A stretch of DNA of 26,305 bases, from positions 1 to 26,305 of IMG/VR virus record IMGVR_UViG_3300020057_000140; one strand, 5' to 3'. Positions 2,518 through 24,679 of this stretch are shown here, piece after piece. Under the pieces are notes generated by a model that saw nothing but the letters and a program-made list of their open reading frames with translations, ran no database searches and had not been told where the DNA came from. The DNA comes from a virus. The first letter of the stretch is position 1. Every line of letters starts with the position of its first letter. The position numbers were made by a program, and so were the translations under genes.

Positions 2518-2951
2518 AAGAGTCCACCGCCGTTGTGCTCGTGCGCGAGTTTGCGACGCGTGAGGGGGCCGATGCCTACGCTCGCGAGCACGAAGGCAAG
2601 ACGTTCACGCGGTATTGGACCGTGGCCGAGATGCGGCAGCGCACCCTGAACTGGGCGCGTGACTACGCGATCGAGCAGGCGACGGGCAAGCCCGAGTGGG
2701 CCACGCGCATGCTCGACCTGTGGCTCACCGACGTGAGCTTCCGCGCGCGAGCAGAAGACCCGATCGAGCCCTACGAGGGCAAGGACGGCAAGTGGTACGC
2801 AGGCGTGCCCGATACGCTCAAGCAGGTGGAGATCTACGACTCTGTCGAGGAGCGGACCGTTACCATCGACGTCAAAGTCGTGGCGACCGACGCGCTGGCC
2901 AAGGCCGTCGATGCAGATGAGGTAGTTCTCGCCGGGGCTCGCCTTCCGTGA
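2514..2951 (+). CDS. uncharacterised protein between paralogous fibres
   Basis: 145 aa. Its ATG overlaps the stop of the first fibre (ATGA), and its TGA overlaps the GTG of the second fibre (GTGA), so all three genes form one coupled unit. The sequence is mixed alpha/beta and charged: an N-terminal strand-helix (AVVLVREFATREGADAYAREHEG), an aromatic/Arg-rich helical centre (W-A-R-D-Y, W-A-T-R-M-L-D-L-W-L), and a C-terminal strand pair (RTVTIDVKVVATDA). No catalytic motif or signal peptide seen. The position suggests an accessory of the fibres, such as a fibre-assembly chaperone or a small virion partner, but that rests only on context. Confidence 0.7.
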   Translation: MKESTAVVLVREFATREGADAYAREHEGKTFTRYWTVAEMRQRTLNWARDYAIEQATGKPEWATRMLDLWLTDVSFRARAEDPIEPYEGKDGKWYAGVPDTLKQVEIYDSVEERTVTIDVKVVATDALAKAVDADEVVLAGARLP

Positions 2952-4819
2952 GGCTGAGGGCACTACGTCTGCTCGGGATGCAGCGAGGGGATATCCGCCT
3001 CCTGGCTCCCTTGCCTACCAACCTCGTCGCGCCGACGGTTTCGATACCCACCTACGAGGTGGGAGCGATCGCAACGGTCGACCCGGGGATCTGGGTCGAC
3101 GCATCCGAGTTCCATGGGCAGTGGCACATCCGAGGGGTGCTGATTCCAGGCGCGGTGGGGCTCACCTACCAGCTCCTGGGCAGTGAGCTTGGGGGCATAG
3201 GCTCGATAGCCACCGAGGCGCTCTTCGCCGATGCGAGCGGCTTTCCTCCACTCACGTGCGCGGTCTACGGGATCGGCACCAACGGCACCAGCGCCGCCTC
3301 CACGATCAGCTCGAACAGCGTGAGCTTTTCATGGAGCCAGTACGCCTCGCAGGTTGTCCTGCGCCTGGACGAGAGCGCCATCGCGTCCTCTGCAGGTAGG
3401 GTCGACTCATGGACCAATCAAGGCGCAGTGGCGGCGGTCTACTCGCACACGGGAGCAAACCGCCCGGCGACGGGCACGCTTGCGGGCTGGGCCGCAGTCG
3501 ACTTCGATAACCCTGCCGATCCTTCGACGCAGGATAAGTTCCTTCGCGCGACCACTGTGCATATGCAGGATCTCGTGGGGGCCAACCCCACGAACGTCAT
3601 CGCTTGGATGGTGGCCGACTGGCGCGCCTTCGACGTGGATTCGAGCGCAAGCGGCAGGCCCGCGATCATTTCTGACGTCGGGGGCTCGAAGTTCATCCTG
3701 GGCACGCAACGCAACAACGCAGGCTCTCTATCGGTCACAAACACCGTCACGGGCGTGACGAACACTGAAACGCAGACCAACAACGTCCTCTCGGAGACGG
3801 GCCTTCACGTGCAGGAGTGCAGGCTCCACCAGTCCCAGCTGATGAATCGCTGGGACGGCGTAGACAATACGGCCAGCCCGGGCGCGCTCACGGCAGTCAC
3901 AAACATCACAGCAGTCAACGGGACGCGTATCGGCGCCGAGACCAACGTCACGGTGAACCATGCGTTGCGCGGGGTCATCGGCACTGTCGTTTTGTGGAAC
4001 AGCGCGGCGGCCATCACGCCTACGCAGATCAACACGATCCGCGCCGTGCTCAAGGGCAAGTACGGCGCGCTGACGGGTATCGAGAATCCCGCGAACTACG
4101 TTGCTGCTGTTGCCCTCATCTCGAGCGCGAACACCTACAGCAGCTCGCTCGCAGGCAGACCCACGGGCAGCGCCTACTTCACGGCTGCGCTCGTGTGGCG
4201 AAAGACGACGGCAGCAGCTACGAGCATGGTGAGGAACTACTCGGCGGCGCGCGGGACCACCCTCACCTCCACCACCAGGACAGGGTTTTTGGCGAGGGTC
4301 AGAGACAACGCTGCTGTTCCAGGTAGCTCGGTTCGCTTCGGCACCGCGATCGGCCGCGCCGATACCACCACGCTTGCTACTGACGCCTTCCCGCTGATCA
4401 CGCAGAACGCGATTCAAAGGACTGTCGTCGTCTACGACAACGGAGTCGTGTACATGTATCTCAACGGCGTGCTCGTGAAGACCGATAACCAAGGCACGCT
4501 GAGCGTCCCCGCAGGGGTTACTGGGTACAACCCTCCCGTGGCGGAGGCATTCCTGCTCGCCTCAGCTTCGGCGAGTGTGACCGATGAGTTCGAGCTGGTC
4601 TCGATGGGATTTGCCGACGACGTCGCGCTCTCAGCAGCCGAGGTCGCCGCGTGGGATGCCGTCGTTGCGGCCAAGGGCAGTCGCGCCTTTGCAGGGGCCG
4701 ACTTCCACTGGGAGGGCGAAGACGCGGGCTCTACGTGGACTGACCGGATCGCAGGCCACGTGCTCACGAGGACGGGCTCGCTCGCTGTGGCGCGCAAGTT
4801 CGTCGGCATCTACAGCTAG
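2948..4819 (+). CDS. tail fibre-like protein, paralogue of the upstream fibre
   Basis: 623 aa from GTG overlapping the previous stop. Same plan as the protein at 721-2517: basic tag MRLRALRLLGM, Ig-like domain (about residues 25-127; EVGAIATVDPGIW, LIPGAVGLTYQLLGSELG), LamG-like domain from W129 (ending LRAVLKGKYGALTG near 375) and a second jellyroll (about 385-600; ending AEVAAWDAVVAAKGSRAFAGADFHWEGEDAGSTWTDRIAG). Signature segments match the first copy (TYQLLG, WSQY, NTIRA, DEFELVSM, WTDRIAG), while loops have diverged strongly. This is what tandem duplication followed by receptor-driven divergence would give. The downstream 56-base gap precedes an unrelated gene, so the third gene of the unit was not duplicated. 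Confidence 0.75.
   Translation: MRLRALRLLGMQRGDIRLLAPLPTNLVAPTVSIPTYEVGAIATVDPGIWVDASEFHGQWHIRGVLIPGAVGLTYQLLGSELGGIGSIATEALFADASGFPPLTCAVYGIGTNGTSAASTISSNSVSFSWSQYASQVVLRLDESAIASSAGRVDSWTNQGAVAAVYSHTGANRPATGTLAGWAAVDFDNPADPSTQDKFLRATTVHMQDLVGANPTNVIAWMVADWRAFDVDSSASGRPAIISDVGGSKFILGTQRNNAGSLSVTNTVTGVTNTETQTNNVLSETGLHVQECRLHQSQLMNRWDGVDNTASPGALTAVTNITAVNGTRIGAETNVTVNHALRGVIGTVVLWNSAAAITPTQINTIRAVLKGKYGALTGIENPANYVAAVALISSANTYSSSLAGRPTGSAYFTAALVWRKTTAAATSMVRNYSAARGTTLTSTTRTGFLARVRDNAAVPGSSVRFGTAIGRADTTTLATDAFPLITQNAIQRTVVVYDNGVVYMYLNGVLVKTDNQGTLSVPAGVTGYNPPVAEAFLLASASASVTDEFELVSMGFADDVALSAAEVAAWDAVVAAKGSRAFAGADFHWEGEDAGSTWTDRIAGHVLTRTGSLAVARKFVGIYS
2960..2980 (+). repeat. 21-bp repeat at 5' end of fibre gene, copy 2
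   Basis: Exact copy of 733-753, at the same codon positions of the second fibre gene. It may be a trace of the duplication, or a conserved nucleic-acid signal at the fibre gene starts. Confidence 0.85.
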
Positions 4820-5355: not shown

Positions 5356-5673
5356 GTGGACGCCAACATCACGCCTATCGCCGATCGAGTCCTTTGCCGA
5401 GCGCTACCCAATCCATCAAGTATCGGAAGCGTCCTGGTGCCCCTGGGCTATGAGGGAAGGCTCACGCGGGCTGAGGTGGTCAAGGTGGGCCTCGGAGGCT
5501 GGCGGGGCAGCGTGCGCGTCCCTCCAGGCGTGAGACCGGGCGACGTGGTCCAGTTCGACGGCTCAGGCATCGATTGGGTGCTCGGCCAGGAGATGGTGGG
5601 CAGCCCCGTACCGCGTGCAGGCGACTACTTCATCATCAGGCAGGAGCGCATCCACGGCGTGGTGACCGGATGA
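5356..5673 (+). CDS. GroES/Cpn10-like co-chaperonin
   Basis: 105 aa from GTG, with GAGGAG at 5344-5349 as ribosome-binding site. Length and pattern fit the Cpn10 fold: an opening ITPIADRVL strand (GroES has IRPLHDRVI), a Ser/Gly-rich segment at about residues 18-31 ending S-V-L-V-P that matches the mobile loop and its hydrophobic GroEL-binding triplet, then RAEVVKVGLG (GroES: RGEVLAVGNG), a PGDVVQFDGSG turn (GroES: VGDIVIFNDGYG), and a terminal DYFIIRQERI strand (GroES: DILAIVE). GroES caps GroEL in ATP-driven folding; phage versions such as T4 gp31 adapt host GroEL to fold capsid protein. No GroEL gene lies in this window. It sits just before a hairpin terminator. Confidence 0.72.
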   Translation: MDANITPIADRVLCRALPNPSSIGSVLVPLGYEGRLTRAEVVKVGLGGWRGSVRVPPGVRPGDVVQFDGSGIDWVLGQEMVGSPVPRAGDYFIIRQERIHGVVTG

Positions 5674-9283: not shown

Positions 9284-10930
9284 GTGGCAGGGCGGCCTCA
9301 GCTCCTGATCGATACGGCTGTCGTGGCGCAGCAGGCGGACCTCGAAATCCACCTGCTCGCCCCGAGCCGCGACCCGTACTGGCAGGACATCTACGACCGC
9401 ATGCTGAGAGAAGACCTCTGCTTCTTCGCAAAGGAGATCCTCAAGCTGCAGGTCGGCCCTCACATGGTCGACTGGGGCGAGATGGTGGCCAAGTACAGGC
9501 GCGTGGCCATCAACGCAGCGCGCGATCACAGCAAGTCGACGTTTTTCAGCTACGCGTATCCGATCTGGCGCGCATGGACCGAGCCTGGCGTCGAGATCTA
9601 CATCTTCAGCAAGACGCTCGATCAGGCGTGCGAGTTCCTCGACGCGATCATCTACGGCAAGCCCGGCCTGGCAGGCATGGTCGATATTCCCGAGCTGCAG
9701 CACCTCGTGCCTGGGTCCGAAGACTTCAAGAACAACCCACGCGTGAGGCTCAACAGGGCTGACGTGCGGTTCACCAACGGCTCGCGCATTCGCTGCGTCG
9801 GCTACGGCAAGGCGGTGCGAGGCAGGCACCCGAAGTATATCGTGCTCGACGATCCGCTCAACGACGAGGACATGTACTCGGAGATGGTGCGTCGCAAGAA
9901 CATCGGATACTTCCAGTCGGCCATCTCGAACATGGCCACGCCCGATGGCCAAGTCGTGTGCGTCGGCACGCCGTACCACGCGGGCGACCTCTGGGGGTAC
10001 CTGCGCAAAAACCCCGTCTACGTCTTCAAGCGCTACCCCGCGATCATCCGCGACAAGAAGACCGGGCAAGAGCGCGCGCTGTTTCCATGGCGCTGGTCGC
10101 TTGAAGCGCTCAAGACGAAGAAGCGCGAGATCGGTTCGGTCGCCTTCACGCGCGAGATCCTCGTCCAGCCCATCTCGGATGATTTGTCGATCTTCCCGAG
10201 CCACCTGTTCCCGCCGCTCTACGACTTTACGATGTGCATCCCGATGCGGCCCGCGCAGATCGCAGCGAGGGGCATCACCTCGACGTATATCGGAGTCGAC
10301 CTTGCGCGCTCGGCCAACGTGGGCGCCGACTTCTTCGTCATCTTCGTCATCGGCGTGGACGTCGACGAGAACCACTACATCCTCGACGTGCAGCGCACCA
10401 AGGGGCTGCCGTTCAAGCAGCAGCTGCAGCGCATCGAGATGGCAGGCAAGCGTTACGACCCCTCGCTCATTTTCATCGAAGCCAACTTCATGCAGCAGAT
10501 CTACACCGACGAGATGCGCCGCACGACCGATCTGCCGGTCAAGGGCTTCGTCACGCTCGCCACCAACAAGTACCCGCTCGATAAGGGCATCCCGGGCCTG
10601 CGCATCCTGCTCGAGAACGGCAAGATCATCATCCCTCGTGGCGATGAAGAGTCGCGCCGCATGACCGATGAGTGGATCGAGGAGTGCACGCAGTTCGGCT
10701 TCGTGAACGGCAAGCTCCAAGGCGCTGGGGACCACGATGACTTAGTCATGGCCTGGTGGTTCGCGTGCGAGGCCAAGAAGGCGGGCGGCTTTTCGTTCGC
10801 CATGGGCGACGCCAATGGCGAATCCACGAACGATTGGGGCGAGGAAGACGAAGGGGGCGAGGACTGGCAGGCCGTGATGTTGGGCGACGAGCGCGAGCGC
10901 GAAGGCGACGAGTCCGCGTTCGGCACCTAA
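9284..10930 (+). CDS. terL: terminase large subunit
   Basis: 548 aa from GTG. The ATPase half has a variant Walker A loop (A79-R-D-H-S-K-S-T86), a Walker B strand YIVLDD (185-190) followed by PLNDED, and a coupling motif VCVGTP (225-230). The nuclease half has the RNase H-like acidic set: IGVDLARS (D339), FIEAN (E399) and GDHDDLVMA (D483-D486). Together these define a phage large terminase, which pumps DNA into the prohead and cuts the concatemer; both active sites look intact. The tail after ~500 is acidic and likely disordered. The small subunit is not obvious among upstream genes. The start is near-contiguous with the preceding gene. Confidence 0.96.
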   Translation: MAGRPQLLIDTAVVAQQADLEIHLLAPSRDPYWQDIYDRMLREDLCFFAKEILKLQVGPHMVDWGEMVAKYRRVAINAARDHSKSTFFSYAYPIWRAWTEPGVEIYIFSKTLDQACEFLDAIIYGKPGLAGMVDIPELQHLVPGSEDFKNNPRVRLNRADVRFTNGSRIRCVGYGKAVRGRHPKYIVLDDPLNDEDMYSEMVRRKNIGYFQSAISNMATPDGQVVCVGTPYHAGDLWGYLRKNPVYVFKRYPAIIRDKKTGQERALFPWRWSLEALKTKKREIGSVAFTREILVQPISDDLSIFPSHLFPPLYDFTMCIPMRPAQIAARGITSTYIGVDLARSANVGADFFVIFVIGVDVDENHYILDVQRTKGLPFKQQLQRIEMAGKRYDPSLIFIEANFMQQIYTDEMRRTTDLPVKGFVTLATNKYPLDKGIPGLRILLENGKIIIPRGDEESRRMTDEWIEECTQFGFVNGKLQGAGDHDDLVMAWWFACEAKKAGGFSFAMGDANGESTNDWGEEDEGGEDWQAVMLGDEREREGDESAFGT

Positions 10931-10974: not shown

Positions 10975-11424
10975 ATGAATCTCGCCGCGCGCTTTTGGTC
11001 GAAGGTTGTGAAGGGCTCCCGCAACGAGTGCTGGCTCTGGAAGGCCGGGAGAGTCCAGGGGTACGGTGCGTTTTGGTACAAGGTAGGGCCCGCACGCGCG
11101 CATCAGGTGTCATGGGAGCTGACGAACAAACGAGCGATCCCCAAGGGGCTGATCATCATGCACTCCTGCGATACGCCCCTCTGCGTGAACCCGAAGCACC
11201 TCATCCTCGGCACCCATCAACAGAACATCAGCGACCGGGACCAGAAGGGCCGCCAGCGCACGACCCACGGCACTGAGCACCCGCTCGCGAAGCTTAACGA
11301 CGACGACGTGCGCTTCATCAGGGCATCGCCCCTGGGGCAGCGAAAGCTCGCAGCGCAGTACGGCGTCTCGCAGTCCCTCATTCACCGGATACGCGCGCGG
11401 CTCTCCTGGGCTCACGTCGCCTGA
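10975..11424 (+). CDS. HNH homing-type endonuclease
   Basis: 149 aa. N-terminal ECWLWKAGR-x-QGYGAF, then RAHQVSWELTNKRAIPKGLIIMHSCDTPLCVNPKHLILGTHQQNISDRDQKGR: the classic small HNH nuclease with zinc cysteines (C65, C70) and catalytic His/Asn residues (H63, N72, H75). The C-terminal part (EHPLAKLNDDDVRFIRA...LAAQYGVSQSLIHRIR) is a helix-turn-helix DNA-reading module usual in free-standing phage homing endonucleases. Placement directly after the terminase gene is a common insertion site for such elements. All key residues are present, so it is probably active. The sequence just downstream (11425-11599) is a patchwork of short repeats, which fits a mobile insertion. Confidence 0.92.
   Translation: MNLAARFWSKVVKGSRNECWLWKAGRVQGYGAFWYKVGPARAHQVSWELTNKRAIPKGLIIMHSCDTPLCVNPKHLILGTHQQNISDRDQKGRQRTTHGTEHPLAKLNDDDVRFIRASPLGQRKLAAQYGVSQSLIHRIRARLSWAHVA
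11341..11357 (+). repeat. 17-bp direct repeat, copy 1 (inside HNH gene)
   Basis: CGAAAGCTCGCAGCGCA occurs here, near the end of the HNH gene, and again at 11492-11508. The copies are 151 bases apart and enclose the end of the HNH gene. Confidence 0.8.
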
Positions 11425-13876: not shown

Positions 13877-13904
13877 TTGACCCCACAGGCAGCACGGGCA
13901 GAAT
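13877..13904 (+). promoter_or_regulatory. candidate sigma-70-type promoter
   Basis: TTGACC (13877-13882; 5 of 6 to consensus) and CAGAAT (13899-13904; 4 of 6) with a 16-base spacer. It lies in a 186-base gap and 56 bases before the ATG at 13960, so it could start transcription of the head-gene block. No other feature is seen in that gap. Weak evidence by pattern alone. Confidence 0.3.
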
Positions 13905-14444: not shown

Positions 14445-15065
14445 ATGCACAAGGGGCCGATCGCAGCGGAGCCGTCACGCTGGGGTCCAGGGGAGCCCGG
14501 CCATTACCCGTCCATGTCGACGCACAAGATGCGCTTTGTTGCATCGCGCGGCATGGGTGAGCTGAACGCGCAGATCGCCGAAGCGAGCAGGCTCTTCAGG
14601 CTCGACGAAGAAGGCGCTCGCATCGCGCCTCACGTCGTGACTATCGAAGACGTGACCAAGGGCATCGTCGGCAGCTACGCCGACCAGCAGTCCATCCAGC
14701 GCCTGGTGCTCGATACCAACGCTGAGTACACCAAGGGCGGGACGGTGCGCCTCACGCATGCTGTCGGCCGCTTCATCAGCTGCTTGCGCTCATACAAGCA
14801 CATCGATTCCGATACCCGCAGCGAGCTGACGCGGCGGGCTCAGGCCTACTGGAAAAAGGTCGCGCCCGTCGGCTACGACCGGCAGCCCACTGTGCGCAAG
14901 AGCGAGGAGCGCGCAGGGCGCGGCCGGCACGGGGCGCTTGTTGGTAGAGCGGAGAAGAGCCTGCGATTCACGATCCCGAGCGGCCTCATGAAGTCGGCTG
15001 GGGCTCCTCCTGCGCCAGGCAGGGCGCAGGACTGGAGCGACTACGTTCGGACGCGTGGCCGATGA
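14445..15065 (+). CDS. uncharacterised protein
   Basis: 206 aa from ATG 14445; ATG 14514 (MSTHKMRFVASRGMGELNAQIAEAS) is an alternative since neither has a well-placed ribosome-binding site. The centre is helical (IEDVTKGIVGSYADQQSIQRLVLDTNAEYTKGGTVRLTHAVGRFISCLRSYKHIDSDTRSELTRRAQAYWKKV), and the last ~50 residues are basic and Gly/Pro-rich. The stop overlaps the next ATG (ATGA). No recognised domain; its place ahead of the head-associated block suggests a virion-assembly or regulatory role but nothing proves it. Confidence 0.65.
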   Translation: MHKGPIAAEPSRWGPGEPGHYPSMSTHKMRFVASRGMGELNAQIAEASRLFRLDEEGARIAPHVVTIEDVTKGIVGSYADQQSIQRLVLDTNAEYTKGGTVRLTHAVGRFISCLRSYKHIDSDTRSELTRRAQAYWKKVAPVGYDRQPTVRKSEERAGRGRHGALVGRAEKSLRFTIPSGLMKSAGAPPAPGRAQDWSDYVRTRGR

Positions 15066-15469
15066 GCGACGGAGTCAAAGCGATCGCCCGAGCCCTGCAT
15101 CGGAAGATCATGCTCTCGATGCGGGCAGTCGCCGACAGCGAAGAGGACCCGATCGCGCAGGAGGCCACCGAGCAGCTCGCCAACCTCTACGACGCGTCCG
15201 AGAGCTGGCTCGATACACGGGACCTCGACGACGCGATCATCATCTCGCGCACCGTCGCGCTCAACGGATACAGGCAGGTGAGCGAGTCACGCCACGTGGC
15301 CCGCACGGTCGCCGAGTGCCTCGCAAACTACGCGCTCGGCGAGGCCAAGCTCTCGCGCGAAGTAGGCGGCGAGTTCGCATTGGCGCAAGCTTGCGCCTTC
15401 GACGCCTGCGCCAAAGAGGCCAGGCGCTACGCCGATGGGGAAAGAGACCATGCGCTTCGTAGTGGATAG
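15062..15469 (+). CDS. helical protein of unknown function, upstream of the RelA-like gene
   Basis: 135 aa, starting in an ATGA overlap. Almost wholly alpha-helical: KAIARALHRKIMLSMRAVADSEEDPIAQEATEQLANLYDASESWL, then TVALNGYRQVSESRHVARTVAECLANYALGEAKL and a Cys-containing helix AQACAFDACAKEARRYADG. It overlaps the ParB-like/RelA-like gene by 20-35 bases, so the two are coupled. If the downstream product is toxic in the producing cell, this gene would be the first place to look for a neutralising partner; that is pure context inference. Confidence 0.65.
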   Translation: MSDGVKAIARALHRKIMLSMRAVADSEEDPIAQEATEQLANLYDASESWLDTRDLDDAIIISRTVALNGYRQVSESRHVARTVAECLANYALGEAKLSREVGGEFALAQACAFDACAKEARRYADGERDHALRSG

Positions 15470-16613
15470 GCAGACGCTCGAAAAGGGCGTGGCTCGCGGC
15501 GGCAAGTACTATCGGCGCACGCCGACGGGCAACCCGAAGCGGCCGTGGCGCTACTACTACACGCGAGCAGACTACGAGCAGGCGCACGGCGAGCAGGCCC
15601 ACGTATCGGGATCCGAGGTCAAGCAGTCGAGGCAGAAGCTCCCCGATAGCCCGTGGCGCTACTTCCACAAGACTCCTGGCGCCCAGCTCATCCCGGTCAG
15701 CAAGCTCCTGGCGGCCCGCGCACGGCCCGAGGGCATCGCGAACGCCGCGGCGCACATGCAGAACGCGTTCGAGGGCAAAGGCGAGAAGCGAAAGCCGATA
15801 TCTCTTCGCGCCAACGGCGACGGCACCTTCACAGTGCTCGACGGCAACTCGACGACAGCGATGGCCCGAGCGGCCGACTGGAAGCACATCGTCGGCCGCG
15901 TCGAGCCCGCTCACACGCCCGCGCAGGAAAAGCGACACGCCTACCTCGAGAAGATGAAGGGCACCGTGCAGTCGTTCCGCGCAGCTCTCGCCTCGGGCAA
16001 GCTACAGGGCACCCTCGGCGAGCACGTGCGCACCGCGAAAAAGACTCTCGCCAAGCACCACGCGACGCTGCCCAAGCTCATATCGGACCTGCAGTCGCAC
16101 GCTCCCAAAGGGGCGAAAATCAAAGCTCGTGTCAAAGCGCTCGAGAGCGCGCTCGGCAAGCTCGACCGAAAGCCCAAGTACGGCACCGCGGCGAACCTGC
16201 AGGACTCGACGGGAGGACGCGTCGTCTGCGACTCGATCGCCGAAGTCGAGGCGACCGTCGCCAACCTGAAGAAGGCATACAAGGTCGTTACCGAGGACGA
16301 CTACATCTCCTCGCACCTCGATGGTTACAGGTCCTACCACCTCATTATCGAGCACGAGGGCCTCCAAAAGGAGATCCAGGTGCGAACGAAGAATCAGGAT
16401 ACGTGGGCAGACTTCGCGCACGACATCTACAAGCCGATGACCCCGAAGCAGGAGAAGGCCCTCGCCCAATCGAAGGCGGAGATCAAGGAATACTCGGCGA
16501 AGCTATCCGAATACATCTACGCCAAGGACCTCGGCAAAAAGCCTCCGCCCCCCATCCTACCCAAGTGCCCTGACGTCATCCCCGCCGCGTTCGGCGGATG
16601 CCCGAGCGTGTAA
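15435..16613 (+). CDS. ParB-like domain fused to RelA/SpoT-type (p)ppGpp synthetase-like domain
   Basis: 392 aa; ATG 15450 (after GGGGAAAGAG) is an alternative start. Residues 23-47 hold the K-Y-x2-R...W-x-Y-x-Y module also found in three neighbours (GGKYYRRTP...RPWRYYYTRADY). Residues ~85-158 match the ParB/sulfiredoxin-like domain (IPVSKLLAARARPEGI, VLDGNSTTAMARAADW). Residues ~228-335 match the RelA/SpoT synthetase core: R232-V-K234, K242, LQDSTGGRVV with the Mg-ligand position D257, an EDDYISSHLDGYRSYH loop with the nucleotide-stacking tyrosine position Y298, and E313-I-Q315-V-R-T. No HD hydrolase is present. Such synthetase-only proteins make (p)ppGpp or, in toxic forms, ppApp or modified tRNA. 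Product and role here are unknown. Confidence 0.78.
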   Translation: MGKETMRFVVDRQTLEKGVARGGKYYRRTPTGNPKRPWRYYYTRADYEQAHGEQAHVSGSEVKQSRQKLPDSPWRYFHKTPGAQLIPVSKLLAARARPEGIANAAAHMQNAFEGKGEKRKPISLRANGDGTFTVLDGNSTTAMARAADWKHIVGRVEPAHTPAQEKRHAYLEKMKGTVQSFRAALASGKLQGTLGEHVRTAKKTLAKHHATLPKLISDLQSHAPKGAKIKARVKALESALGKLDRKPKYGTAANLQDSTGGRVVCDSIAEVEATVANLKKAYKVVTEDDYISSHLDGYRSYHLIIEHEGLQKEIQVRTKNQDTWADFAHDIYKPMTPKQEKALAQSKAEIKEYSAKLSEYIYAKDLGKKPPPPILPKCPDVIPAAFGGCPSV

Positions 16614-16614
16614 A

Positions 16615-17418
16615 ATGGATTTCGATAAGCGAATGAAGGCAAAGAAGGCCATGACCCCGAAGGCGGGGCAGGGCTTCAATGTCGTTGGCATCGACACCTT
16701 CGAAGATCCAGGCGAAGAGCTGTACCTCATCGCGAACGTCAAGACGCGCGCCGAGGCTGAGAAGAAGCTCGCTGCGTGGAAGAAGAAGCACTTGGGCGAG
16801 CCCGCACACATCTACGGGCCCGAAGGCGGTGGCGGCGAGCCCGAAGAGGAGAACGTCGAGAAGTCGTTCGGCCACAAGTACAAGACCCGCACGCGCGATG
16901 CCTCCGGCAACTACAGGTACACGTACGAGGAGGAGCACCCGCTTCTTCGAGGCAACCTCGGCATCAAGCGGCAGGACATGCCTCAGATATTCCAGGAGCA
17001 CCTGCCTGCGTTCGTAGGCGCGATGAAGGGGCGCGGCATCAAGGTCGACGAGAGCGAAATCGCCGTCGGCAAGCTGAAGGCGACGCAGAGCGAGCTGCAC
17101 ATGCCCATCGTGCACAAGCTCGCCCAAGGGCACACCGAGGGCGCGCGCAAAAACCTGCGCATGCCGGTCATCACATCGAGCGATGGGTACGTGCTCGACG
17201 GCCACCACCGCTGGGCGGCCCTCCACGCGCAGGACCCGAAAAGCACCATCCGGCAGGTCCGCATCGATCTGCCCATAACAGCGCTCCTCAAGGAAGCCGG
17301 CTCGTTTCAAAAGGTCGGGTACTCCAAGTCGATGCTCCACCCGAAGTTCGCGGGGCTCGTGAAGAGTCGCTTTGTCTTCACCGATCCCAAGCACCGGCGT
17401 ATCGGTCTCGAGTGGTAG
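16615..17418 (+). CDS. ParB/sulfiredoxin-like domain protein with shared KY-R-YxY module
   Basis: 267 aa, starting just after the previous stop. Residues ~20-68 (FNVVGIDTFEDPGEELYLIANVKTRAEAEKKL...PAHIYGP) are a small alpha/beta domain seen in phage head-associated proteins. Residues 86-105 carry the module G-H-K-Y-x2-R-x-R-x3-G-x-Y-x-Y-x-Y-E. Residues ~145-230 are a ParB-like domain: I-x-V-G-KLKATQSEL, MPVITSSDGYVLDGHHRWAAL and IRQVRIDLPITALLKEA. The DGHHRWAA loop is the usual signature of phage and plasmid ParB-like nuclease proteins, which act as nucleases, CTPases or adaptors. The C-terminus (VGYSKSMLHPKFAGLVKSRFVFTDPKH) is unassigned. Coupled to the RelA-like gene, likely as part of one virion-linked set. 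Confidence 0.8.
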   Translation: MDFDKRMKAKKAMTPKAGQGFNVVGIDTFEDPGEELYLIANVKTRAEAEKKLAAWKKKHLGEPAHIYGPEGGGGEPEEENVEKSFGHKYKTRTRDASGNYRYTYEEEHPLLRGNLGIKRQDMPQIFQEHLPAFVGAMKGRGIKVDESEIAVGKLKATQSELHMPIVHKLAQGHTEGARKNLRMPVITSSDGYVLDGHHRWAALHAQDPKSTIRQVRIDLPITALLKEAGSFQKVGYSKSMLHPKFAGLVKSRFVFTDPKHRRIGLEW

Positions 17419-17429
17419 GCGCGGGCCAC

Positions 17430-17864
17430 GTGAAGCGGATCACCGTCCAAGAGCTGAGAGCAGCCAGCGAGCTGCTGATCAAGGCCTGCGCCTGCGACAA
17501 GCCCAAGCCCAAGCGCAAAAAACGTCGCAACGCGCGGGCCGAGCTGGTCGCGTTCTACGAGGCGGCCGCGCAGGGTGCAGCAGGCGATACGCCCCATCAG
17601 GCGATCCCCGACTTCGGTGCGCTCTACTTCGCGCCCGAGGACGACGAGAAGCGAGCCCGCGAGTCAGAGGCTTCGCTCAACCGCAGGCGCTCGATGGCGC
17701 CAGGCTTTCACGGGTACAACGAGCCCGAGGACAAGCCCGAGCTGCGTTTCATCGCTCCCGATAACATTCACGGGAGCCCCTTGGTCGGCCTGGCCGAGCC
17801 GGTCATCCGCTCACCTCGCCTCGTATCGTCGAAAGTCAGGCTGAAGAGTAAGCTCGGCCGCTAG
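17430..17864 (+). CDS. uncharacterised small basic protein
   Basis: 144 aa from GTG 17430 (MKRITVQELRAASELL); a GTG at 17412 that overlaps the previous stop is an equally possible start. It has a basic stretch (DKPKPKRKKRRNARAELVAFYEAAAQ), a loop region with DFGALYFAPEDDEKRARESEASLNRRRSMAPGF, and a C-terminal RSPRLVSSKVRLKSKLGR. No domain recognised. It lies between a ParB-like gene and the 890-aa acidic gene and is likely cotranscribed with both. Confidence 0.6.
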   Translation: MKRITVQELRAASELLIKACACDKPKPKRKKRRNARAELVAFYEAAAQGAAGDTPHQAIPDFGALYFAPEDDEKRARESEASLNRRRSMAPGFHGYNEPEDKPELRFIAPDNIHGSPLVGLAEPVIRSPRLVSSKVRLKSKLGR

Positions 17865-17875
17865 GAGAACACCCA

Positions 17876-20548
17876 ATGGACGCGCTCGATAGCCTGATGC
17901 TCCTCATGAAGGGCGACAAGAAGAAGGGCAAGTTCCCTGCCCCCAACGCCGACAAAGACTCGGACGGCGTGCCCGATAAGCCGCAAGGCGACCCCGAGGG
18001 CGACGGCGATGCGCAGGCCATGGCCGACGCGTACAACGGCGTGGTCGACAAGGACGACTCGGCTGACGTGGGCGACGAGGCTGCGGCCGGCGACGACAGC
18101 TTCGATGCCGCTGGCGGCGAGGGCGGCGACGAAGACGACGACAGCTTCGATGCCGCTGGCGGCGAGGGCGACGAAGGCGGCGACACCGACGGCGACGGCA
18201 TCGCGGACGACGAGGATGACGATCACGACGGCGACGGCATGAGCGACGACGAGGAGCTTGCCGACGTGGCCGATGGCGCAGGCGAGGGCGACTTCCCGGG
18301 CGGCGAGGACGAGCAGGGCGGAGGCAGCCCCGAGGTCGCGCAGCTGGTCATGAAGATCGCCGCGGCCGAGAAAGACTTCTACGCGGCCAAGGGCATGCAC
18401 GGCGCAGGGCACCACAAGGCCGAGGGCGCGATGGACGTGATGCACAAGCTCGTCCGCAAGCTCGTGCGGTCTATCGCGGGAGCGCACGGCGTCGACCCGA
18501 GCGCCAAGCCCGGCGAAGAGGGCGACGACTCGGGCAAGGCGCCTCCCTTCGGCAAGAAGCCTGGCGGCGAGGGCGATGAGGGCGCGCCGTCCAAGGCGCG
18601 CCCCTTCAAGGGCAAGAAGGACCGCAAGAGCAACCCCTTCGCCCGAGGCGATGATGGCGGCGACGGACCCGATGATCAGGACGAGCCCTCGGACGACAGC
18701 GACAGCGACAGCGACAGCGGCGACGAGGGCGACTCCGAGAAGAAGAAAAAGACCCCGTTCGGCAAGGCCGTCACGGGCGTCATGCAGATGCTCGGTCCCG
18801 TGGCACAGGACGTCCTGTGTAAGGCGGCGGGCCTGCCGCCCAAGCGCCCGACCCTGACGCATTCGCCTCGCCCTGCGGGACCCGCTGCGGGCGGCGGCTT
18901 CATCGACTGGGGCGCGGTCGTCTCAGCCAACGCGGACGGCAGCCCCGGCCACATGACCAAGAGCGAAGCGCCGGCCGCGCCGGCCATGGCGCGAGCAAGC
19001 GGAGGCAGCAGCGCGCAGGGCCCCGCGTCCCGCCGCATCACGATGCCCGGACTCGATAGCAACGGCTCGCCCCTGCGGCAGGCGGCGAGGGAGAAGCGAA
19101 TGAACGAAATCAATCACCCCGCTATCGAGCAGCCCATGCGCAAAGCAGCGCGCGTGGTAGTGACCGATGTGCCGAGGCTCGACGCGATCGACATGCTCAA
19201 GGCTGTGCTCGAGGGCGATAGGCAGGGCCAGCTCCGCAAGTCGGCTGGCCACAAGTACATCAGCCGCAAGCGCAACGTGCACGGCGGGTACGACTACGTC
19301 TACGAGCACCCGAAGACCAAGCAGAAGCACAAGTTCTCGACGTCACACCGCTCGTGGTCTACGGGCGAAGGCGACGCCCACCTCGAGCCCGGCTCGAAGT
19401 TTCACAACGTGACCAGCCGTGAAAAAGGCTCGGACTATCCTGATTCACAGGGGGGAGCCTCCGAATGGACCGAGCCTGGCGGCAAGAAGAAGAACAACAG
19501 CCACGCCCACGGTCATATCGGGGACGACCACATCAAGGCGATGCACGAGCACGCCTCGCGAGACACGCTGCGTCTCAAGGCCAAGAAGGACCGCTCGGGC
19601 GAGCGCGACAAGGCGCAGTACGGGCAAGTCGATGAGCAGGGCTCATTCCATGGCTCGGCCGTCGAGCACAAGGTTGCCTACGATCAGATGAAGAGCCCCC
19701 TCGGCTCGACGGTACCGGGCAAGTCGCGCGCTCACATGCTCAGCCCCTTGGGGCTGCATCACGCAGCCAAGCACGCGGCCAAGGTCGGAGACCGAAAAGC
19801 GCTCGATATGATCGGCAACGCGCTCCCTCGCGCTTCCTTCAGGCGGCCCTCTCAGTACACAGCACAATCAGAGCACGAGAGCGGCGCACGTGCGCTCGTC
19901 GAGAAGTACGGCACGGGAGGTTCGCGCGCGGAAAAGAGCATGGGCCGCGATGGCTCGGGCCGCGCGCTCCGCAAGGGATTCGATACGTACGAGCAGCAGT
20001 CGTCGAACCTGCCGGACGATCTGCTCTACGAGTACCTGATCGGCGCGATCGAGGAGTCGCTTCATTCGTCGATCCGCAAGAGCGACACGCAGCCGACCGG
20101 CCACATCATGGCCGACCTGCTCAAGGCAGCCCGCACCAACGGCGACCTCAAGCGCGCGCTCGGCACCTTCAGGGTCACCCAGTCGTCTATCGACTCGGTG
20201 CTCGCCGAGCGTGGCCTGCTCAAGTCGCAGGGGCAGTCCCTGAGCAACGGGCTCATCCCGGACGAGCGCCACTACACCCCGCAGGCGCCGTGGATGCGTC
20301 CCGGCGAGTACGTCGGCGTGGTGGTCGCGCCTCCTGCCGATAACAACGTCGCGCACCTGATCCGCGACGACAGGCTCGACCCTTGCCGCTCGCTCGCAGT
20401 GGCCCGAGCGGAGCAGCACCAGTCCCTCTGGAGGGGCGGTGACTCTCGGGCGCGCGTGAACTACGATGCCGCGTGTGCAGTGCACGGACGCGATATCTCG
20501 AAGTCGCAGAACCTCCACAACCCGTACGTGACCTGCAGCTGTAGCTGA
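17876..20548 (+). CDS. 890-aa acidic protein with Ca-binding-like repeats and KY-R-YxY module
   Basis: AGGAG at 17863-17867 fixes the start. Residues ~20-145 are very acidic with DxDxDG-type loops (DKDSDGVPD; DTDGDGIADDEDDDHDGDGMSDDEE), like thrombospondin type-3 calcium loops; within them a DDSFDAAGGEG unit occurs twice. A helical patch with many His and Lys follows (~155-200), then more acidic, low-complexity sequence (DSDSDSDSGDEGD). Residues 458-477 are the shared module G-H-K-Y-x2-R-x-R-x3-G-x-Y-x-Y-x-Y-E. The C-terminal third is more ordered (LPDDLLYEYLIGAIEESLH; RPGEYVGVVVAPPAD) and ends CAVHGRDISKSQNLHNPYVTCSC, a Cys/His tail I have seen in phage proteins. The gene lies just before portal, so a head or ejection role is likely. 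Function unknown. Confidence 0.7.
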   Translation: MDALDSLMLLMKGDKKKGKFPAPNADKDSDGVPDKPQGDPEGDGDAQAMADAYNGVVDKDDSADVGDEAAAGDDSFDAAGGEGGDEDDDSFDAAGGEGDEGGDTDGDGIADDEDDDHDGDGMSDDEELADVADGAGEGDFPGGEDEQGGGSPEVAQLVMKIAAAEKDFYAAKGMHGAGHHKAEGAMDVMHKLVRKLVRSIAGAHGVDPSAKPGEEGDDSGKAPPFGKKPGGEGDEGAPSKARPFKGKKDRKSNPFARGDDGGDGPDDQDEPSDDSDSDSDSGDEGDSEKKKKTPFGKAVTGVMQMLGPVAQDVLCKAAGLPPKRPTLTHSPRPAGPAAGGGFIDWGAVVSANADGSPGHMTKSEAPAAPAMARASGGSSAQGPASRRITMPGLDSNGSPLRQAAREKRMNEINHPAIEQPMRKAARVVVTDVPRLDAIDMLKAVLEGDRQGQLRKSAGHKYISRKRNVHGGYDYVYEHPKTKQKHKFSTSHRSWSTGEGDAHLEPGSKFHNVTSREKGSDYPDSQGGASEWTEPGGKKKNNSHAHGHIGDDHIKAMHEHASRDTLRLKAKKDRSGERDKAQYGQVDEQGSFHGSAVEHKVAYDQMKSPLGSTVPGKSRAHMLSPLGLHHAAKHAAKVGDRKALDMIGNALPRASFRRPSQYTAQSEHESGARALVEKYGTGGSRAEKSMGRDGSGRALRKGFDTYEQQSSNLPDDLLYEYLIGAIEESLHSSIRKSDTQPTGHIMADLLKAARTNGDLKRALGTFRVTQSSIDSVLAERGLLKSQGQSLSNGLIPDERHYTPQAPWMRPGEYVGVVVAPPADNNVAHLIRDDRLDPCRSLAVARAEQHQSLWRGGDSRARVNYDAACAVHGRDISKSQNLHNPYVTCSCS

Positions 20549-22293: not shown

Positions 22294-23055
22294 ATGGGCC
22301 TCCGAACAAACATCGACCTCTCCGTGCAGTTCGGGCAGGACAACACCCTCACCGATCTGCTCTTCAGCCGCGACATGCAGTCGCTGCTCGATACGCTCGA
22401 CCATGGCGTCTCACACGTCGTGACGCTCGACGCAGGCGAGTCGAACTACGTCGTGTCCATGGGCGACGTCGAGCTGGCGCGCCTCATCTATATCGAGTCA
22501 GACGGCGAGTTCACCCTCACGCTCGGCGGCGGCGTCTCGACGCAGGCCATCATGAGCGCTGCGGGCGGGAGCTACCCGACCGGCTTCACCGGCGTCGATA
22601 CCCTCGCCCTCAAGATCGACGCCGTGACGATCTCGGTAACGTTCGATCTGCTCGACCAGACGGTCCAGCAGGTCATCAACCGCCTCAACGCGGAGGCGGC
22701 CCTCCTCAGCTTTCAGGCGGTCGCGTATCTGAACGGCGCTCAGCTGCGCCTCAAGAGCCCGACCTTCGGCGTGAACAGCAAGGTCGAGATCGTCTCGGCG
22801 TCTGCGGGCGTGCTCACGGCGCTTGGCCTGACGGTCAGCTCGATAGCGGGAGATGCCGCAGTGAGCGGCACCGGACCCATCCAGGTGCGTCGCCCTGCGA
22901 GCACCAACTCGGCCACGCTCGCCGAGGGCGTCAAAGCGTTCTTTCTCGGCACGGTGCAGACGGGCGCGCTGACGATCGACAACCCCGACCCCGATAACGA
23001 GATCCAGCTCCGCATCGCCATCGCGGGTGACCTGTCTCCGACCATCCCGTGCTAA
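22294..23055 (+). CDS. beta-rich protein between portal and MuF gene
   Basis: 253 aa; AAGGA at 22282-22286 precedes the ATG by seven bases. The sequence is Thr/Ser/Val-rich. Residues ~105-175 (KIDAVTISVTFDLLDQTVQQVINRLNAEAALLSFQAVAYLNGAQLRLKSPTFGVNSKVEIVSASAGVLTALGLT) match the 'F...DT..Q.I..IN.......A....G..L.L.S...G..S.I.V.......LG' pattern seen in phage sheath-like proteins and flagellar hook-type insertions. The last part (TGALTIDNPDPDNEIQLRIAIAG) is a further strand pair. The product is therefore a plausible virion protein, possibly a head-tail or surface component. Position between portal and MuF genes is unusual for a tail protein. Precise role unknown. Confidence 0.6.
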   Translation: MGLRTNIDLSVQFGQDNTLTDLLFSRDMQSLLDTLDHGVSHVVTLDAGESNYVVSMGDVELARLIYIESDGEFTLTLGGGVSTQAIMSAAGGSYPTGFTGVDTLALKIDAVTISVTFDLLDQTVQQVINRLNAEAALLSFQAVAYLNGAQLRLKSPTFGVNSKVEIVSASAGVLTALGLTVSSIAGDAAVSGTGPIQVRRPASTNSATLAEGVKAFFLGTVQTGALTIDNPDPDNEIQLRIAIAGDLSPTIPC

Positions 23056-23065
23056 AACCTCGGGC

Positions 23066-24679
23066 GTGACGGACAAGGTCCATATCGAGGCGCCTGCCAG
23101 CCTCGACGCGCTCGATCTCGCACAAGCGGTCGCAGGGCCTCACTTCCTCCTCAAGGCCGAGCACCGCGCGGGCAAGAGCCTCGGGCGCTGGCTCGCCATG
23201 GACCAGCTGCAGGAGGCGTTGCAGCGCACGTACTCGACGCAGATCAAGCGCCTGCTCAGCGCCGTGCGCGATCAGATCATGGTGGCCGCAGGGCCTCTTC
23301 TGCCCAGCATGCTGGCTCAGGTCCAGCAGCTCATCCGCGACTACCACGCGCTCTTCGCCATCCACACGATCCATCCCGATATCGTGCCCGACCACGAGCA
23401 GCGCGCGATCGATCAGAGAGGCACGTCCTACCTCGCCTCGCCCAGCTTCAAGTTCGTCGACATGGCCTACCACTACGGCCGCTCGCTGCTGCCGGTCAGA
23501 ACAGTCGAGCCCGGACCCGACCCTGCGAAGGTCACGCTCCCTCAGTTCCTCGGCTACGAGATCCCCACCCTCTCGCGCGAGGAGAAGCACGCAGTCGAGT
23601 GGGCTAGGCAGAACGCGGCCACCTACGTGCGCAACCTCGGCGACAGGGCAGCGCACGACGCAGCCGTTGCGCTCATCCGCGACAAGGTCGCCGAGAACAT
23701 CAGCGGGCGCGAGACGTGGCGCAAAGCAGGCAGCGACATCGGCCATGCCTCAGGCGACTGGTCGCGCGACATGGGACGTATCGGCGCGACCGAAAAGCAG
23801 CGCGCCATGCAGGAGGGCGCGGTCGCAGGGCTCAAGGCTCGGCGAAAGAAGCCCGGCAAGAGTATCCGCGTCGCCAAGCAGCCCACGCCTGACGCGTGCC
23901 CTGACTGCAAAAGGCTCCACCTGGACGGCGGCGTGCCGATCATCTTCCCGCTCTCGCTGCTCGAGGCCAACGGCACCAACGTCGGCCGCAAGCGCGCGAG
24001 CTGGAAAGCCGTCGTCGGGCCCGTGCATCCATGGTGCGCGTGTGAGCTTATCGAGGTCCCCGACGGCTGGGGCTTCGACGCTGATGGCAACCTCTCGCCC
24101 GAGTCGCTCACGCGCGCCGGCTACCTCGATGGCGATCTGCGCAAGGGACAGAACGGGCACATGACCTACGGCGACAGCGTGCCCGATACTGGCATCACGC
24201 TGCGCATCCAGGACCCTCGCCTGCGCGTTGCAGTCGAAGCCGTGCTCGCGCGCACCCCGAGCGAGATCTTCGACAAGAAGGTCGGCATCACGCTCATCAC
24301 GACCGATATGCCTCGAGCGCAGAACCCGCTCGAGGATCACGACTACGCGTACTGGACCGGCAACGAGATCCGCCTGATGCACAACTTGGATCCAGCGAGG
24401 ATCGATCGCGTGCTCCCGCATGAGATCGGCCATTCGCTGAACGTCCATCTGGTGCGTAAGCTAGGCAGTGCAGAGGCGGTACGCAGGTGGCACGACGAAC
24501 TATGGAAGATCTCGGAGGCGGAGGGCTTTGTATCGAACTACGCCCGCAAGATGCCTATCGAGAACGCAGCCGAGGTCTCGATGAAGTACATCTACGACCG
24601 CAAGCGGCTCATGCTCGGCAGCCCGAGGCAGTTCGCGTTCTGCCACAAAGACTATCGAGAAGTGCTTCGCCCCAGATGA
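23066..24679 (+). CDS. MuF-type minor head protein with C-terminal HEIGH metallopeptidase-like domain
   Basis: 537 aa from GTG 23066; an in-frame upstream start at 23027 overlaps the previous gene and is less likely. The N-terminal ~250 residues are helical. C278-P-D-C281 and H321-P-W-C324-A-C326, around a GGVPIIFPLSLLEANG stretch, form the zinc-binding Cys motif of phage Mu gpF-like (SPP1 gp7-type) head proteins, which bind the portal and enter or line the head. The C-terminal ~170 residues contain HEIGH (452-456) in RVLPHEIGHSLNVHL, and later FVSNYARKMPIENAAEVSMKYIY with a candidate third ligand E503. This is the layout of zincins such as anthrax lethal factor-like domains (S-x-Y-A...N/D-x-x-E). 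Polymorphic toxin domains at MuF C-termini are known. Target unknown. Confidence 0.8.
   Translation: MTDKVHIEAPASLDALDLAQAVAGPHFLLKAEHRAGKSLGRWLAMDQLQEALQRTYSTQIKRLLSAVRDQIMVAAGPLLPSMLAQVQQLIRDYHALFAIHTIHPDIVPDHEQRAIDQRGTSYLASPSFKFVDMAYHYGRSLLPVRTVEPGPDPAKVTLPQFLGYEIPTLSREEKHAVEWARQNAATYVRNLGDRAAHDAAVALIRDKVAENISGRETWRKAGSDIGHASGDWSRDMGRIGATEKQRAMQEGAVAGLKARRKKPGKSIRVAKQPTPDACPDCKRLHLDGGVPIIFPLSLLEANGTNVGRKRASWKAVVGPVHPWCACELIEVPDGWGFDADGNLSPESLTRAGYLDGDLRKGQNGHMTYGDSVPDTGITLRIQDPRLRVAVEAVLARTPSEIFDKKVGITLITTDMPRAQNPLEDHDYAYWTGNEIRLMHNLDPARIDRVLPHEIGHSLNVHLVRKLGSAEAVRRWHDELWKISEAEGFVSNYARKMPIENAAEVSMKYIYDRKRLMLGSPRQFAFCHKDYREVLRPR

Follow-up and report, generated by a model that had tools for sequence, protein, structure and literature searches.

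The ParB-RelA gene and its neighbours

The window (the whole stretch of DNA analysed here, 26,305 nucleotides) is a 26-kb fragment of a viral genome. It was found that one of its ORFs, P0001, encodes a protein in which a phage-specific module, a ParB-like domain, and a RelA/SpoT-type domain follow one another. The features of the window to which the text refers are as follows.

9284..10930, + strand: terminase large subunit, upstream border (phrog_38, E=2.2e-64)
15435..16613, + strand: P0001, ParB-RelA polyvalent protein, 392 aa (ORF and translation, coding signal, domains)
15447..15644, + strand: N-terminal mobile module of P0001, residues ~5-70, GGKYYRRxPTGNPKxPWRYxYT (63-67% identity to sister phages)
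15669..15917, + strand: ParB/sulfiredoxin-fold domain of the 'DGNST' type, residues 79-161 (AlphaFold model, Noc profile, viral and rhizobial plasmid relatives)
16002..16610, + strand: RelA/SpoT synthetase domain with a clade-specific C-terminal tail, residues 190-392 (PF04607, SAS structures, clade alignment, tree)
16128..16394, + strand: catalytic residues R232, K234, D257, R262, Y298, R299, H302, E313, Q315, and R317 (alignment with YwaC and YjbM)
16615..17418, + strand: 267-aa protein consisting of the partner domain, a GHKY module, and a ParBc_2/phrog_2859-type domain (phrog_2859, E=1.6e-25; ParBc_2 weak)
16615..16827, + strand: small partner domain, residues 1-70 of that protein, candidate immunity protein or antitoxin (homologues at L002, Pro-Nvie1, L038/L039, L040, and L042)
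17876..20548, + strand: 890-aa acidic protein with a GHKY module (C-terminus common to the zeta-toxin protein of the sister phage L033)
20548..22290, + strand: portal protein, downstream border (PF04860, E=8.6e-25)
23027..24679, + strand: MuF-like head protein with a C-terminal HEIGH metallopeptidase-like motif (alignment with the MuF-InPase protein of L038)

P0001 begins with an ATG codon and occupies exactly 392 codons, and the G+C contents of its three codon positions are 62, 45, and 84%, which is a strong coding signal. With exact ORF coordinates and this third-position value, the gene is genuine, as the initial annotation had it. It lies inside a block of genes on one strand, with the terminase gene upstream and the portal gene downstream. 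P0001 thus has what characterizes a polyvalent protein, namely several effector-type domains (module, ParB, and RelA) in a late-gene context, here the terminase-to-portal interval. Neither of the two genes upstream of it (14445-15065 and 15062-15469) matches any family.

Several other genes of the record deserve mention in their own right. Two large proteins without a Pfam match (721-2517 and 2948-4819) start alike (xRLRALRLLGM..., then YEVG..ATVxPG.W) and resemble tandem paralogues; they are perhaps tail or receptor-binding proteins. A GroES-type co-chaperonin is encoded at 5356-5673 (Cpn10, E=1.7e-7), and an HNH endonuclease, possibly a homing enzyme, directly after the terminase gene (10975-11424; HNH_3, E=8e-9). 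From 14445 to 17864, consecutive genes have a [LMS]RF[VTI] motif near an end of the product (MRFVASR, LRFTIPS, MRFVVDR, SRFVFTD, and LRFIAPD), which may serve as a tag for sorting or packaging or may have arisen by chance. The 23027-24679 product aligns with the MuF-InPase protein of the viral locus L038 with a score of 449, the shuffle maximum being 62. The PF04233 match of the L038 protein is weak, and the HEIGH motif of the window protein was read from the sequence. It is possible that this protein is another head-delivered effector or a maturation protease.

A synthetase-only RelA/SpoT domain

The RelA_SpoT family (PF04607) matches residues 232-332 of P0001 with E=2.9e-17 and 63.4 bits, the curated cut-off being 27. 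In a single-sequence PDB search, the best solved relatives were SAS2/YwaC and SAS1/YjbM; in a profile search, SAS1 and SAS2 appeared at 1e-20 to 1e-22, and the toxSAS enzymes FaRel2 (2e-7) and CapRel (1e-6) were more distant. The catalytic positions align with those of YwaC and YjbM and are invariant in all of six divergent clade members. The AlphaFold model of this part is only moderate (pLDDT about 35-84), yet Rel and SAS structures were still matched. Thus, the residue numbers that had been read from the sequence (R232/K234, D257, Y298, and E313/Q315) are all correct, and the RelA-type fold that had been proposed holds up against RelA, SAS, and toxSAS profiles and structures, with SAS and Rel structures matched and the active site aligned. 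The reported lack of a hydrolase was also borne out; no HD domain (PF13328) of the sort that a bifunctional Rel/SpoT has exists anywhere in the 26-kb record. In summary, the C-terminal domain is a synthetase-only RelA/SpoT domain, apparently intact, with every catalytic position conserved. P0001 shares the synthetase-only fold and the same catalytic residues with SAS1/SAS2 (YjbM/RelQ and YwaC/RelP). In contrast to these enzymes, it is fused to a ParB domain and a module, is encoded among phage head genes, and has the clade-specific C-terminal tail.

Might P0001 be a structural head protein whose enzymatic domains are vestigial? Its location among head genes would suit such a role, and the C-terminal domain of the MuF protein of phage Mu is reported to be inactive (PMC5512222). 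However, the invariance of all catalytic positions in six divergent members makes this very improbable.

Which product is formed? By the motifs defined in PMC12226406, the syn3 SxH (S300/H302) and the syn4 V/I-R of P0001 are those of a guanosine-type RSH. Most probably, the enzyme would use ATP to pyrophosphorylate a guanosine nucleotide and so make a product of the (p)ppGpp type. This assignment is tentative, because motif swaps did not convert the specificity of Apk2 (PMC12226406), a group of MuF toxins which make (p)ppApp and have GxN (syn3) and YH (syn4). The domain might instead act on tRNA 3′ ends or adenosine nucleotides. Phage-linked relatives do both, since Apk2 makes (p)ppApp while PhRel and CapRel modify tRNA (PMC12691689, PMC12226406), and the related synthetase of the provirus Pro-Nvie1 has GxH in place of SxH. 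I regard these alternative substrates as rather improbable in view of the SxH and V/I-R motifs and of SAS1/SAS2 being the most similar enzymes.

With P0001 as the query, matches were found in only 29 of 50,697 phage records, and RelA domains are thus uncommon in phages. A RelA-only scan of genome contigs yielded nothing useful. The RelA protein of Streptococcus Javan576 was considered as a head-block relative and rejected, as it has a lysis-end/flank setting beside host genes.

The mobile module and the DGNST ParB domain

I scanned viral contigs with a DNA pattern of the module core (GKYYRRxPTGNP), and three contigs, L031, L032, and L033, were found. Their copies are 63-67% identical to the N-terminus of P0001. 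In L031 and L033, the module runs on into a zeta-toxin kinase (PF06414), while its continuation in L032 is a protein of 1573 aa in which an LPD1 polyvalent-protein domain is found. Since the terminase is 65% identical in L032 and the portal is 68% identical in L033, these are sister phages of the window. Homologues of the window genes at 13903, 14445, 16615, and 17876 surround the module in the sister phages, and therefore this is one head-block neighbourhood with a constant module and exchangeable effectors. Such an arrangement is the logic of polymorphic toxins. The swapping of this module between effectors was not found described in the literature searched.

The GHKY modules of the two genes following P0001 were considered as a source of its N-terminus, and rejected, as neither pairwise shuffles nor a two-copy profile gave a significant similarity. 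Thus, the initial annotation was right about the N-terminal module and about the domains in general, while the likeness of the module to those of the next two genes is not significant, and both the module swap and the small downstream partner described below had been missed. The GHKY module itself, about 29 residues in length (GHKYxxRxR..GxYxYxYxxEHP), is common to 16615-17418, 17876-20548, and the sister phages, and none of 500 shuffles reached its score. In L031 (5253-7202) and L033 (1011-3197), a polyvalent protein encoded just before the portal gene combines a GHKY module, a ParB-like domain, the N-terminal module of P0001, and the zeta-toxin kinase.

The middle domain of P0001 matches ParB families only weakly by its own sequence (E=0.05). 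Viral relatives sharing a DGNST motif are about 50% identical to it, and one of them, L018, matches ParB families at E=2.6e-4 to 7e-4. A profile of the DGNST relatives matches Noc with E=0.0044, with GNST opposite the GERR motif. AlphaFold models residues ~71-160 with high confidence (pLDDT mostly 77-94 in 79-161), and the model of residues 79-161 matches SerK, SbnI, Noc, ParB (ParB-CTP), and Srx with VIA-align Z scores of 7-9, of which values under 8 count as middling. The GERR motif of the CTP-binding partition proteins ParB and Noc is not present in P0001, where the position reads GNST, and the ddrB-like ParB family (PF18763) has no match in P0001 up to E=0.1, while L038 matches it at 5e-19. 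Because the relatives match ParB families, their profile matches Noc, and the confident model matches proteins of this fold, residues 79-161 form a ParB/Srx-fold domain lacking both GERR and a PF18763 match. The ParB-like assignment made at first sight is thereby supported.

The initial annotation also knew of no described ParB-synthetase fusion. However, this kind of protein has already been described. Iyer et al. 2017 (PMC5512222) report RelA-SpoT domains in phage polyvalent proteins, including MuF-RelA fusions, and polyvalent proteins of Helicobacter prophages in which RelA-SpoT occurs together with a DdrB-like ParB. The same authors predict that such phages trigger an alarmone-like response and that polyvalent proteins are packaged and injected. 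RelA/SpoT was likewise listed among polymorphic toxin domains, MuF fusions included, by Zhang et al. 2012 (PMC3482391). Since RelA polyvalent proteins and Apk2 toxins have been described, P0001 belongs to a known kind. Like the former, it is a multi-domain protein of a phage head/late block with a RelA-SpoT domain and a ParB beside it. In contrast to those proteins, the ParB of P0001 is of the DGNST type, the N-terminal module is another one, and the clade of its synthetase includes members from archaeal viruses. A fusion of a DGNST ParB with RelA was not found described in the literature searched.

Is the DGNST-RelA combination found elsewhere? WP_209185999, encoded on a plasmid of Rhizobium sp., resembles P0001 in that a RelA/SpoT domain comes after a ParB-like domain of the DGNST type. 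In contrast to P0001, its RelA domain is divergent, a long extra C-terminal region follows, no head genes lie near, and no partner was identified. In the viral record G754 (L018), the gene preceding the DGNST gene encodes a RelA-like domain of a divergent kind, and in G756 (L021), such a domain lies about 4.4 kb from the DGNST domain. L024 has a RelA-like region and DGNST in one protein; a profile built from L018 and L021 matches this region with E=7.5e-7 (the best of 200 shuffles gave 2.6), whereas the window-clade profile missed it. No RelA link was seen for the viral loci L017 and L019 or for solo DGNST proteins of Ensifer. DGNST ParB domains thus recurrently accompany RelA-like domains, and because RelA domains are so uncommon in phages, chance is an unlikely explanation. 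A DGNST model was positive in two of 385 genomes from the class of the Caulobacter genome, one of the two being the centre genome, and the domain is therefore rare in this class. A ParB-only scan of genome contigs gave one short match. The Rhizobium conjugative-plasmid protein at L011 (7932-9719), which consists of a DGNST ParB, a RelA/SpoT domain, and a long further region, has a Ser/Thr kinase gene near it and is possibly a defence protein, while solo DGNST ParB-like proteins of about 125 aa occur in several copies on Ensifer/Sinorhizobium plasmids (L012, L013, L015, and L016).

The small partner and a reading of the cassette

Residues 7-59 of the protein encoded directly downstream of P0001 are 47% identical to a 62-aa ORF which directly follows the synthetase gene of L002, and they also match nvie-Pro1-7, located after the synthetase gene of Pro-Nvie1, a Nitrososphaera provirus. 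I then scanned viral contigs with partner sequences only, and five loci were found: the L002 contig itself, the near-duplicates L038 and L039, L040, and L042. At each of the new loci, a member of the same synthetase clade forms the C-terminal part of the product encoded immediately before the partner (profile E=1e-31 to 2e-57). The partner of L040, searched against the 50,697 phage records, gave one match, gene 7 of Pro-Nvie1. Partner-only searches therefore returned to the same synthetase clade in every case. The distance from the synthetase stop to the partner start is -16 to +11 nt, and the partners are 62-147 aa in size. The three sister-phage records without RelA, which may be incomplete, also lack the partner; in this co-occurrence comparison, the positives are so by construction and the absences are informative. 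The RelA and partner segments have 59-61% G+C versus 65-67% elsewhere (65% in the window), as would be expected of a toxin-immunity cassette moving as a unit.

In the tree, the six synthetases group together with support of 99/98, and this clade splits into window/L038/L040 on one side and Pro-Nvie1/L002/L042 on the other. What precedes the synthetase differs among them. In L040, a MuF-like end and an InPase belong to the same protein as the synthetase; in L038, a helicase (SNF2), a ddrB-ParB, and a zeta toxin precede it, with the MuF-InPase gene right after; L002 and L042 have zinc-motif proteins; and the window has the module and ParB. In Pro-Nvie1 (FR725450), gene 6, annotated by its depositors as 'Rel_Spo-like', directly follows the portal gene and has the same small partner behind it (gene 7); compared with P0001, this synthetase stands alone without module or ParB, and its host on record is an archaeon. 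L002 and L042 may also have archaeal hosts. The clade is thus associated with head genes, lying after the portal gene in Pro-Nvie1, joined to InPase and a MuF-like end in L040, and preceding MuF-InPase in L038.

The partner family is recognized by neither Pfam nor PHROGs, and its profile has no solved relative. No other relatives were found in phages, plasmids (searched with a query other than the partner itself), Pfam, or PHROGs, nor in any of 398 genomes drawn from the phylum of Caulobacter. Since all homologues found are in one narrow similarity range, distant relatives unlinked to a synthetase could exist. A conserved partner in bacterial and archaeal viruses was not found described in the literature searched, nor was a dedicated small partner like that of the P0001 clade found in the passages of PMC5512222 that were consulted. 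Besides the partner, no antitoxin-like or hydrolase gene was recognized in the record.

A toxin-immunity pair has a cognate antitoxin or immunity gene next to the toxin gene, and the conserved gene seen beside this synthetase clade is a candidate for that role. Judging from this linkage, the partner is probably the cognate immunity (or silencing) protein of the synthetase. There are precedents; MuF-fused alarmone synthetases have adjacent immunity proteins, both hydrolases and inhibitors, one of which is a non-enzymatic inhibitor (PMC11699363). Apk2 resembles P0001 in having a synthetase-only C-terminal domain, a place in the head morphogenesis region, and small adjacent immunity genes, that of P0001 being a candidate. 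In contrast to Apk2, P0001 lacks a MuF domain (a separate gene encodes the MuF-like protein), retains guanosine-type motifs (SxH rather than GxN), and has no hydrolase-type immunity gene on its record but a partner without a Pfam or PHROGs match.

In the window, the partner is not free but is the N-terminal part of another protein of the head block, an arrangement that one would not expect of a classical immunity protein. It might thus be an activator, a chaperone, or a packaging adaptor which obligatorily travels with the synthetase clade. This is a serious rival, especially as the fusion to a second head-block protein of the ParBc_2/GHKY type means that the partner may be co-packaged. The small size and the coupled position of the partner, however, fit toxin-immunity pairs, and the partner is not linked to the other effectors of the sister phages and so is not a general packaging factor. 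On balance, I consider such a role unlikely, although it is the strongest of the alternatives.

I consider P0001 to be a head-delivered (p)ppGpp-type synthetase with a cognate immunity or silencing protein encoded downstream, with a probability of about 0.6. The N-terminal ~70 residues, a phage-specific module, would probably tether effectors to the head or to packaging, and the middle ParB/Srx-fold domain, with GNST for the classical GERR, is predicted to be of a nucleotide-binding or nuclease type. P0001 would be packaged via the module and injected with the DNA at infection, where its (p)ppGpp-type product may starve competitors or bring down transcription and translation in the host. The small partner would restrain the synthetase in the producing cell. 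The virion-delivered shut-off enzyme or anti-competitor toxin suggested initially thus appears to be the best-supported class of explanation.

Alternatively, the synthetase may be a toxin of lysogeny or superinfection exclusion (abortive infection) of the CapRel/toxSAS kind, made in the prophage or late, held by an antitoxin, and not injected. The synthetase domain matches the PADLOC candidate defence family PDC-S33 (E=2e-20), the pairing with the partner is tight, and the related ParB-RelA fusion of the Rhizobium plasmid lies outside phage genes. In contrast, the consistent head-gene location, the fusions to MuF/InPase and SNF2/zeta, and the shared N-terminal module point to a virion-linked use, and the profile of P0001 is nearer to ordinary SAS (1e-22) than to CapRel and FaRel2 (1e-6 to 2e-7). 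I consider an abortive-infection role unlikely.

Going beyond head delivery of P0001 itself, the clade and its partner may constitute a new virion-borne toxin-immunity family of bacterial and ammonia-oxidising archaeal tailed viruses, a cassette on carrier modules in which the DGNST ParB would serve RelA-type enzymes as a switch or a nucleotide sensor. I offer this only tentatively, at somewhat less than even odds.

Alarmone synthetases are already known as weapons in secretion systems, toxin-antitoxin pairs, and MuF prophage toxins. If true, the finding that viruses of bacteria and of archaea share a conserved synthetase-partner cassette among their head genes would extend the list of immunity families by a new one, and the partner is the one readily testable new element of the P0001 system. 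It would also become possible to test directly the old prediction that head proteins of the polyvalent kind are injected effectors. The recurrent link of DGNST ParB with RelA provides a concrete hypothesis on what this ParB family may do. In archaea, (p)ppGpp signalling is mostly absent, and the cassette, if true, would raise the question of how such an enzyme acts in an archaeon.
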